Program-made: the position numbers and the translations under genes
Notes under the pieces: model-generated
Told to the model about the DNA's origin: nothing
What the model saw: only the letters and a program-made list of their open reading frames with translations
The model's database searches: none
Shown here: positions 19,721 through 22,429 of the stretch, piece by piece
How positions within the stretch are numbered: position 1 is the first letter of the stretch
Layout of the letters: each line of letters begins with the position of its first letter
Source of the DNA: a virus
Virus record (IMG/VR): IMGVR_UViG_3300009159_000354
Span: 1 to 22,429 of that record
DNA length: 22,429 nucleotides
Direction: 5' to 3' (one strand)

Positions 19721-20047
19721 TTAAGTTGTGGGCACCCCTAGCTGCTCTGGGGTGTAGGCGGTAAGGACGCAGACATCCGCACCCATCCGCAGGGCCTGCC
19801 CCACGGTGTAGTGAAAGATGTGCTCCACCTCATCGCACTCGTCGATCTGGAACTGATCCACCTCGACAGGCCGCCCAGCCCGGTACCAGGTCAACCGCAC
19901 GATGGAATGGATCTCGTCCGGCAGTGGTCCGGTGGTAAACCCCAGCGTGGGGCGCCGGGGCGATTTGGGCTGGGGCTTACGGGCCATGGGGAAAAGTAGC
20001 CACGCGGCTACACGCATCAGACCAAGGTAGAAGTTCGGCATCTTCAT
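19721..20047 (-). CDS. 108-residue hypothetical protein after the primase-helicase
   Basis: The ATG at 20047 overlaps the primase-helicase stop by 4 nt (ATGA), which favours it and gives a hydrophobic N-terminus (MKMPNFYLGLMRVAAWLLFP). A second ATG at 19987 (MARKPQPKSPRRPTLGFTTG) would remove that segment and give an 88-residue soluble protein. The core (SIVRLTWYRAGRPVEVDQFQ, then HYTVGQALRMGADVCVLTAY) looks like a compact alpha/beta domain that I recall as an unnamed cyanophage protein. The stop lies inside an inverted repeat. Function unknown. Confidence 0.72.
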   Translation of the reverse strand: MKMPNFYLGLMRVAAWLLFPMARKPQPKSPRRPTLGFTTGPLPDEIHSIVRLTWYRAGRPVEVDQFQIDECDEVEHIFHYTVGQALRMGADVCVLTAYTPEQLGVPTT

Positions 20048-22429
20048 GACCAGAAGCTCCGAGCGTCTTCGATCAGGGTGTCGATCTCAGCTTTGGAACG
20101 TTCTGTCTCTTGGGGGGTTACAGAATTCGTGTCCCAGCACTCGGAATCCGCATCAACACTGGGAAGTGTGGTGGGACAGGCTTTTTGGTGTCCCACCACT
20201 TTGGGCAGTTCGACGGATCGGAGAGATTGACTTGGTTTTGAGGGCTCCAAATCGCCCTCAGAGTGCTGGGACACCCTTACCCCCTGTCCCACCACTATTT
20301 CCTGTTCCACACTGGGTTTTGGAGTGGTGGGACACTTACTACTACACATATCACGCGAGAGCACTGCAAAGTACCGATTGACCTTGGTGCCCTTCTTCTG
20401 AGGGTGTGGTTCCACAACACTTTCAACCAACCCCCTAGCCATTAAGCGCTGGAGCGCCTTCCTAATCGCCACCACCGAGCCACCACACTGAGGATCACTG
20501 TGCAGTTCACCTTGGGTACGACCCGTAGGGCTAACCCGCAGCCTGGTAAGCACCCGATCCACGATTGAAGCCGGACTGGTGCTCTCAGCACTCAGTTCCA
20601 CGTAGTCCTTCAGCTCGAAGGTGAGATCCTCCAGCATCTTGAGCAGGAGCTTGGCGCCACCACGGCCTGTACGGCTCTTCTCTATGCGGATGATGCGCGT
20701 GGAGGCACCGACCTCCTCCTGTTCCCGTTCAGAGGGCTTCCTGAGGCTCCAGACCTCATCTACGGCGTCCCTGATGGCGGTGGTACCCCTAAAGCCGCCG
20801 GACTTGTTGCTGTGGTGGACCAGCAGGATCGTGCAAGCCGGGAACAGGCGGCCATTGTTGTTGGCCAGCCAGTAGATGGGGCCAGCAAACTCCTTGCGGT
20901 TCTCGTCAAAGGCCGAGCCCCTGGAGCAGCCGGTGATGGAGTCAATAATGACCAAAGCAGGCTTGTGCTTCTGGATCAACTTGACGAACCTGAGATACCA
21001 GTTCAGATCCCAGCCCATAACAACGCGGATTGGATCGTTGCCATTGAGGTCCAGATCCTGCATCTGCTGCTTGACCTGCACCTCTGACTGGTCCCCGTTC
21101 AGGATCAACACCTTGCCTTGTTTAACTGGAACCATGTCTCCACGAATGGAGAAGGGCAGGCCCCGAGCCACATGCTTGGCCAAGGTCCAAGCGGTCATGG
21201 ATTTGCCATCACCACCAGCACCGTGAATCATGACGACACCAGGGCTAGGCATCAGATCTGGGATGAGGTACTCCAAGGTCAGATCCTTCTCCAGCAACTG
21301 GCCAATATCCATGTCATCATCGCGCTGCTCGTATTGGATCTGGCTGATGAGTAGCCGCTCCAAAGCACCAGCATCCCGATAGCCAGCCTCTAGGGCCAAA
21401 GCATTCATGCGGTGGGCCATCTCCGCAGGATTATCCAAATCCTGGAGTTCCTTAGCCCGCTTAATCACCTCGGCATAGCTGATAGTGACGTTGCGAATCC
21501 TGAGGGTGGTGTCACCCTCAACGTCAGCAACCATCTTCCGCAGATCCTCGGACAGCCACAACCGACCAGGCATCTGCTGGTCGGCCATCCAGAACAGCGT
21601 CCCAAGGCTCACAGAACCCCGCTTGAAGCTCTTCCAGACCTCCTCACAGGGATTGGTGCCCTTAGACCACTCGTCGCTGTACTCAGGGTCCTCAGCAGAC
21701 CACGCAGACCACAACGTCAAGCCCAGATCAGTAGGCAGCTCGCTGTGGATTGCCATGCCCACCTTGACCCATTGGTCTCGGCTACCAGCACCCTGCCCAG
21801 GAATCACCTTCAGCGCCGACTGGATAATCTCAGCCACCTCACCTGGATCTCGATCTGAGAAATCCAGAGCCTTCCGGTTTTTGATGAAGCCGCCATCACT
21901 GACACCTTTTCCACAGGCATCCCGCATCTCAGCCAGCAACCACTCCGGCGCTTCTGGGACATCCGTGAGATCCCCCTCAAAGCCGTAATGACCTCCTGGA
22001 GCCTTCCCATCACTAGAGCCCGGATACGCCCCGTAGATGACCCCCTGACGGCCCCAGAGCACCTCGTAGCCAGCGCCGGTATCAGACAACCCAATGCCCT
22101 TTACCTGGCCCCACAAAGCCTCTGGGACGCGGAACAGGTACTTGGCAGCGTTGCTCTTAGTCGAGGTAACAACTGGAGCACCATCCAAGGTGTTGCCCCA
22201 ACCTTTTTTCAGCCTGGCCAAGTTGCGATCCACGTCCAGGATCACCAGGCCATTGCTCCTAGCCCCAGTAAACACACCAACAGCCTGGAACACCGCAGGC
22301 TTACGGGCGATCTGGAGCGCAACGTCTCCAGGCCCCATCACGACATGGTGCGACTTCTCCAGGGGCGTCTTGCCCTTGCTCTCCTTACCAGAGTGCAAAT
22401 GCGCTCCTTTGACGTAAATCGGTGCATAT
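20044..22429 (-). CDS. Primase-helicase: PrimPol N-terminus, PriCT-like, RecA-like ATPase, winged helix (5' end beyond window)
   Basis: The frame is still open at the window edge (YAPIYVKGAHLHSGKESKG just before the edge), so the start is missing. A TTG at 22398 with AAAGGAG upstream is an alternative start, but the upstream codons look like part of the PrimPol domain. Counting from that TTG: LVILDVD (51-57, D55/D57) is the PrimPol catalytic pair, residues about 180-270 (RDQWVKVGMAIHSE, then LWSAWS) fit a PriCT-type linker, GAGGDGKS (393-400) is Walker A, ALVIIDS (481-487) Walker B, and LLVHHSNKS with RGTTAIRDAVD a sensor region. Residues about 605-670 form a winged helix. The last 100 residues are a low-complexity linker built from repeats. 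It would prime and unwind phage DNA. Confidence 0.93.
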   Translation of the reverse strand, partial: YAPIYVKGAHLHSGKESKGKTPLEKSHHVVMGPGDVALQIARKPAVFQAVGVFTGARSNGLVILDVDRNLARLKKGWGNTLDGAPVVTSTKSNAAKYLFRVPEALWGQVKGIGLSDTGAGYEVLWGRQGVIYGAYPGSSDGKAPGGHYGFEGDLTDVPEAPEWLLAEMRDACGKGVSDGGFIKNRKALDFSDRDPGEVAEIIQSALKVIPGQGAGSRDQWVKVGMAIHSELPTDLGLTLWSAWSAEDPEYSDEWSKGTNPCEEVWKSFKRGSVSLGTLFWMADQQMPGRLWLSEDLRKMVADVEGDTTLRIRNVTISYAEVIKRAKELQDLDNPAEMAHRMNALALEAGYRDAGALERLLISQIQYEQRDDDMDIGQLLEKDLTLEYLIPDLMPSPGVVMIHGAGGDGKSMTAWTLAKHVARGLPFSIRGDMVPVKQGKVLILNGDQSEVQVKQQMQDLDLNGNDPIRVVMGWDLNWYLRFVKLIQKHKPALVIIDSITGCSRGSAFDENRKEFAGPIYWLANNNGRLFPACTILLVHHSNKSGGFRGTTAIRDAVDEVWSLRKPSEREQEEVGASTRIIRIEKSRTGRGGAKLLLKMLEDLTFELKDYVELSAESTSPASIVDRVLTRLRVSPTGRTQGELHSDPQCGGSVVAIRKALQRLMARGLVESVVEPHPQKKGTKVNRYFAVLSRDMCSSKCPTTPKPSVEQEIVVGQGVRVSQHSEGDLEPSKPSQSLRSVELPKVVGHQKACPTTLPSVDADSECWDTNSVTPQETERSKAEIDTLIEDARSFWS
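20129..20335. repeat. Six copies of a 12-bp motif in alternating orientation
   Basis: Consensus AGTG(G/C)TGGGACA, nearly always with perfect 11-14 bp matches. Copies at 20129-20142, 20188-20200 and 20285-20296 read as the reverse complement on the + strand; copies at 20167-20178, 20261-20274 and 20323-20335 read forward. A degenerate reverse copy lies at 20303-20313. All lie inside the 3' part of the primase-helicase gene, in its low-complexity linker, where they encode CPTT, VVG(H/Q), VSQHS and CWDT. No other copy is seen in the window. Confidence 0.8.

Follow-up and report, generated by a model that had tools for sequence, protein, structure and literature searches.

Replication origins built from iterons and recognised by their own initiator are, as a kind, already known. 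In both phage P4 (alpha protein, ori/crr) and pRN1 (ORF904), a single protein unites primase and helicase with a winged helix that binds the origin; the helicases are of the SF3 type, and neither system is known to have its origin sites arranged as a dyad array within the linker region of the gene itself. In SV40 and the papillomaviruses, the origin sites lie outside the initiator gene. There, opposed short sites direct head-to-head hexamers of the initiator-helicases T-antigen and E1 (PMC9894130). In the SaPI Rep-ori system and SCCmec Cch2, a self-loading helicase uses a C-terminal DNA-binding domain to read short repeats near its own gene, and the opposed repeats are thought to load two hexamers (PMC7581432, PMC9894130). 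The lambda origin has the O iterons inside gene O, and the stretch of protein that they encode is believed to make no DNA contact (PMC7466680).

In this study, we analysed a window of 22,429 bp, the entire virus record IMGVR_UViG_3300009159_000354, and an array of short sites in the 3' part of a minus-strand Prim-Pol/PriCT_2/AAA_25 gene (20044-22428). The gene, assigned as a primase-helicase by Pfam, PHROGs and AlphaFold, is cut at its 5' end by the contig end and encodes a product (P0001) of 794 aa. This protein comprises a Prim-Pol domain (residues 48-163), a PriCT_2 domain (residues 202-282), an AAA_25 RecA-fold ATPase (residues 373-544), a winged helix (residues ~619-692; 20353-20574, minus strand) recognised by AlphaFold, Foldseek winged-helix matches and covariation, the array-encoding linker (residues ~693-777), and a C-terminal helix (residues 779-793; 20047-20094 corresponds to residues 779-794). 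Nearby are genes for DNA polymerase A, dCTP deaminase, tail proteins and an endolysin. The next gene overlaps the primase gene, and the array is located inside the operon, directly before that gene. With 56% identity between its endolysin and the one from Synechococcus phage S-CBS1, the phage probably has a picocyanobacterial host.

A first-pass annotation of this DNA had described six copies of AGTG(G/C)TGGGACA in strictly alternating orientation within 207 bp. A motif scan confirmed the six copies, five of them exact, at 20130-20334, in the order R F R F R F on the plus strand. The outer site 1 (AGTGGTGGGACA, 20323-20334, plus strand) has its GGACA core at 20330-20334. Site 2 (AGTGGTGGGACA, 20285-20296, minus strand) follows 45 bp away, core to core, and site 3 (AGTGCTGGGACA, 20262-20273, plus strand) lies 16 bp from site 2 and 61 bp from site 1. 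In the other arm, site 4 (AGTGGTGGGACA, 20189-20200, minus strand) mirrors site 3; site 5 (TGTGGTGGGACA, one mismatch, 20167-20178, plus strand) is 15 bp from site 4 and mirrors site 2; and the outer site 6 (AGTGCTGGGACA, 20130-20141, minus strand) is 44 bp from site 5 and mirrors site 1. The complementary pairs reported earlier, 20129-20142 with 20261-20274 (14 bp) and 20285-20296 with 20323-20334 (12 bp), were also correct. The central spacer between the arms (20194-20268), whose length varies in relatives, is not notably AT-rich. We also found a second element, ACTGG, inside one arm (20158-20162, plus strand), ~29 bp inward of the outer core, with a variant, ACAGG, at equal distance from the outer core in the other arm (20301-20305, minus strand).

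When up to two mismatches were allowed, the scan of the whole 22,429 bp returned only the same six matches, all clustered and none scattered. Their total is not above that of shuffled sequence (mean 4.3), whereas the packing of five exact copies into 207 bp is.

Relatives were gathered from metagenome contigs by three protein searches and two spacing-only DNA searches of viral contigs. The resulting set contained 119 distinct related gene tails and ~50 more distant ones, giving ~170 distinct genes of metagenomic phages, and in nearly all of them 6-10 sites sharing the invariant core GGACA form a dyad-symmetric array. The arrays fall into three classes, all mirror-symmetric; in the notation used here, R denotes TGTCC and F denotes GGACA as read along the coding strand. 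Class A, R-45-F-16-R-(34, 46, 67/68, 79/80, 92 or 103)-F-16(15)-R-45(44)-F, has the commonest spacing, with both half-arrays present in 92/119 distinct tails, and includes the window (45-16-80-15-44). Class B, R-45-F-26-R-22-F-27-R-44-F, occurs in relatives that are ~58-60% identical, and class C reads R-51-R-10-R-10-R-10-R ... F-10-F-10-F-10-F-51-F. In both arms and all three classes (120 arrays), same-orientation inner sites are located 51, 61, 71 or 81 bp from the outermost site, on a 10-bp lattice. Thus the strict alternation holds in the window, but it is the appearance of the window's class and not the governing rule: other classes run R RRRR FFFF F, and what the relatives share is dyad symmetry, the 10-bp lattice and the GGACA core.

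For sites of opposite orientation in the relatives' arrays, the distance to the outer site is fixed as well, at 45 and 95-97 bp. The central spacer is restricted to a few lengths (34, 46, 67/68, 79/80, 92 and 103, core to core), which are near multiples of ~11.4 bp and are partly forced by the reading frame. Several contigs (loci L158, L160, L303, L312 and similar) break off at the array or shortly ahead of it, as though assembly had failed on the repeats; the window also terminates within the primase-helicase gene, but at the opposite end from the array.

The spacing-only pattern was found in 96 stretches of viral contigs, and every examined one was inside a primase-helicase gene. In 257 Gb of bacterial and archaeal genomes it gave 2 unrelated matches (L327 and L328), which were discarded as relatives because no such gene is present there; no relative was confirmed in the bacterial and archaeal genomes searched. 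The cultured phages of the collection contained no close relative of the primase-helicase gene, and the nearest genes in the annotated phages S-CBS4, Caulobacter GB2A, ctVRi840 and PA-SR01 showed no comparable array at their 3' ends. In two relatives (L212 and L216), a different C-terminal domain replaces the winged helix and the array is absent, so that winged helix and array appear to have been lost together. Each 40-47 kb genome has a single array. Because this array keeps a fixed position and a fixed spacing, the earlier suggestion that it is the remnant of a small mobile repeat was rejected.

All copies in one phage have similar bases at the five positions preceding GGACA, but these bases differ between phages (GTG, GGG, ATG, GCT, GTT, ACT, AAAGA, AATCG and others); further motif classes among the relatives' arrays include GGGGGACA and CAGCTGGACA. 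Copies within one phage agree despite different reading frames and both strands. At positions -5 to -1, the within-locus agreement was 0.55-0.85, compared with 0.30-0.44 between loci, and little or no excess was found outside the motif. Codon usage at the sites is fixed against that of the rest of the gene: glycine is encoded by GGA at 56/57 array sites against 5% elsewhere in the gene, and cysteine by TGT at 110/110 sites against 35% elsewhere. The ACTGG element is present 29 bp inward of the outer core in 63/79 and 60/91 distinct class A arms. It does not vary with the specificity class and may be the binding site of a second, conserved factor.

We compared these observations with what the protein alone would produce. 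A repetitive linker peptide under low constraint might yield DNA repeats as a coding artefact, and the linker is predicted to be disordered and has the recurring dipeptides CP, GQ and VS. However, 2000 synonymous recodings of the linker peptide failed to reproduce the array, giving a mean of 0.14 exact sites and a maximum of 2, compared with the 5 observed. Rare codons are fixed at the sites, and sites in different frames and on both strands change together, which leaves the coding artefact with a negligible probability. A chance origin of the array was rejected by the within-locus agreement, the recoding test and the fixed rare codons. In the relatives' 3' ends, whose alignment the first-pass annotation had proposed as a check, the DNA geometry is kept where the linker peptides change. 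We observed neither conserved linker peptides over an unconserved DNA motif nor frequent unclustered copies elsewhere. Taken together, these sequence comparisons demonstrated that the array sites are under strong non-coding constraint, dyad-symmetric and helically phased.

The winged helix is located directly upstream of the linker (AlphaFold, mean pLDDT 75). In this model, the recognition helix spans residues 652-665, including 656, and the wing spans residues 675-681, including 680/681. In the full-length AlphaFold model, only the winged helix, the array-encoded disordered linker and the conserved C-terminal helix following it could be interpreted. This last helix (residues 779-794) could be a docking peptide for a replication partner. 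We found that residue 656 tracks bases -2/-1 of the sites (R with TG, K with GG, G with CA, T with CT), while wing residue 681 tracks base -3 (S with G, R/K with A).

To quantify this relationship, motif distance was compared with residue and domain divergence in 59 dereplicated loci, with 300 permutations. Motif distance had no relationship to primase-ATPase distance (r=0.01), but its association was 0.45 for residue 656, 0.53 for residue 680 and 0.61 for residue 681. The controls reached at most 0.20 over 342 primase/ATPase columns, 0.13 in the tail after the array and 0.20 in the 300 permutations. The association was almost unchanged after stratifying by the divergence of the rest of the winged-helix/linker module. 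The top column was 656 for bases -1 and -2, and 681 for bases -3 and -4. In the dereplicated set, base -1 was G in 15/15 loci with K656, A in 8/8 with G656 and T in 5/5 with T656, and base -3 was G in 23/24 with S681 and A or T in 19/19 with R681; these counts span related sequences, for whose kinship stratification and permutations correct only in part.

Switches recurred on different branches of the core tree: R to K together with TG to GG twice, and K to R together with GG to TG three times. A tree-branch co-change test was significant for residue 656 (p=0.002), but it is not our main evidence because the signal is not specific to 656. Other module columns co-change with the motif too, so recombination that swaps winged helix and array as one unit may account for some of the association. 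Overall, the comparison across loci demonstrated that the specificity bases and winged-helix residues 656 and 680/681 of the protein from the same gene change together. Since the motif tracks 656 and 681 while the primase and ATPase columns show no link, the primase-helicase very probably binds the array sites through its own winged helix. The recognition helix would read the bases immediately before GGACA, and the wing those preceding them; this assignment is strongly inferred.

This covariation also bears on the possibility that the inverted copies act as hairpins in RNA or single-stranded DNA (in mRNA stability, attenuation or as a priming signal) and not as duplex sites. Adjacent inverted copies can indeed pair, and their complementarity is kept through concerted changes. 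But pairing needs neither a common sequence, an invariant GGACA, an exact 16- or 45-bp spacing nor direct 10-bp repeats, and it predicts no covariation with recognition-helix and wing residues. We therefore regard hairpins as very improbable. With the geometry kept and the motif co-varying with the winged helix, the first-pass propositions that the sites are not protein-driven, and that they form an array within a replication gene that is bound by a protein, are strongly supported.

Binding by the winged helix might serve gene regulation, with the array as a roadblock or autorepression site in the operon that tunes the primase and downstream genes. The Foldseek matches are general winged helices, with resemblance to MarR/ArsR/PadR-type regulators, and the array is placed immediately before the overlapping next gene. 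On the other hand, there is no second set of sites at a promoter: copies of GTGGGACA were all in the array in genomes G001, G002 and G017, and in G003 the array held 6/7 of them. A roadblock would also need far less than a dyad symmetry held rigidly, with 10-bp phasing, across 150-230 bp. Thus, while protein binding is well supported, the autoregulatory role suggested earlier is less likely because promoter-side copies were absent from the genomes searched with their own motif, and we consider regulation in general unlikely.

We propose instead that the array is the phage replication origin and lies within the initiator gene itself, in its 3' part, and judge this likely on the comparative evidence. 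An origin is the simplest function, since there is one array per genome, almost no motif copies occur elsewhere, and the half-arrays are opposed. A self-recognised start site of genome copying is most likely because the sequence tags change together with two winged-helix residues. A single array per genome would also suit a non-replicative nucleoprotein site recognised by the primase-helicase, such as a pac/cos-like packaging start or a recombination or partition site, and dyad-symmetric multi-site layouts are known in recombination and partition sites as well. However, the covarying reader is a primase-polymerase/helicase and not a terminase or recombinase, which makes such a site quite improbable.

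Origin iterons, as first suggested, remain the best reading of the array, but GC skew and AT content give no support to it. Cumulative GC skew, which had been proposed as a check, was followed in five relatives of 42-47 kb and did not switch at the array, and no AT-rich unwinding element was found at the array centre (44% AT, compared with 45% in the arms and 38% upstream). For the proposed origin, the opposed half-arrays, once bound, would assemble two oppositely facing primase-helicase complexes, which would open the DNA and prime both forks. Since the linker is predicted to be disordered and is followed by the C-terminal helix, it could serve as a tether that tolerates any peptides the sites dictate.

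The array shares the clustered, near-identical short sites of iteron-type origins and, as in the lambda origin, these lie inside the initiator coding sequence (PMC7466680). Lambda, however, has direct repeats beside an AT-rich tract and an O-type initiator that is not a helicase and recruits one via P, whereas the phage array is opposed, has no clear AT-rich tract, and belongs to a Prim-Pol/AAA_25 fusion, a primase-helicase, as its putative initiator. The possession of an own DNA-binding domain together with opposed site arrays resembles the SaPI, SCCmec Cch2 and SV40 initiators (PMC7581432, PMC9894130), and the dyad symmetry corresponds to the oppositely oriented repeat sets of SaPIs. In SaPI/SCCmec, the origin is downstream of the gene and the Rep helicases are AAA+ proteins of the DUF927 or D5/Primase_Cterm type; here the array is inside the coding sequence, the motor is a RecA-fold AAA_25 domain fused to Prim-Pol, and the spacing follows a 10-bp lattice. 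Opposed short sites are also found in the SV40 and E1 origins, and we propose double-helicase loading at the phage array by analogy with the SaPI and SV40 origins (PMC9894130, PMC7581432). T-antigen and E1 belong to an unrelated protein family and carry their dsDNA-binding domain on the N-terminal side (PMC7581432).

We found no description of this origin or family in the open-access papers searched. What appears to be new is the joint occurrence of an in-gene location, a dyad 10-bp lattice, an initiator of the Prim-Pol/AAA_25 type and a two-residue specificity code. At this locus, moreover, the DNA sites and not the encoded protein dictate the coding sequence of part of a gene. More tentatively, and with somewhat less than even confidence, we suggest that this phage family diversifies its replication specificity by a readable two-residue code. 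Primase-helicase and in-gene origin would switch in tandem between numerous types that do not recognise one another, so that relatives and satellites infecting the same cell would have "replication channels" of their own. The platform would be a dyad array phased at 10 bp, onto which RecA-fold primase-helicases are loaded in opposite directions. If the array is an origin, the replication start of a widespread group of uncultured probable cyanophages has been identified from sequence alone. Nature would then offer a series of about a dozen origin/initiator pairs that differ in specificity according to a simple amino-acid-to-base code. With these, one could test directly how initiator-origin specificity evolves, how co-infecting phages cross-talk, and how a primase-polymerase/RecA-fold fusion loads two helicases.
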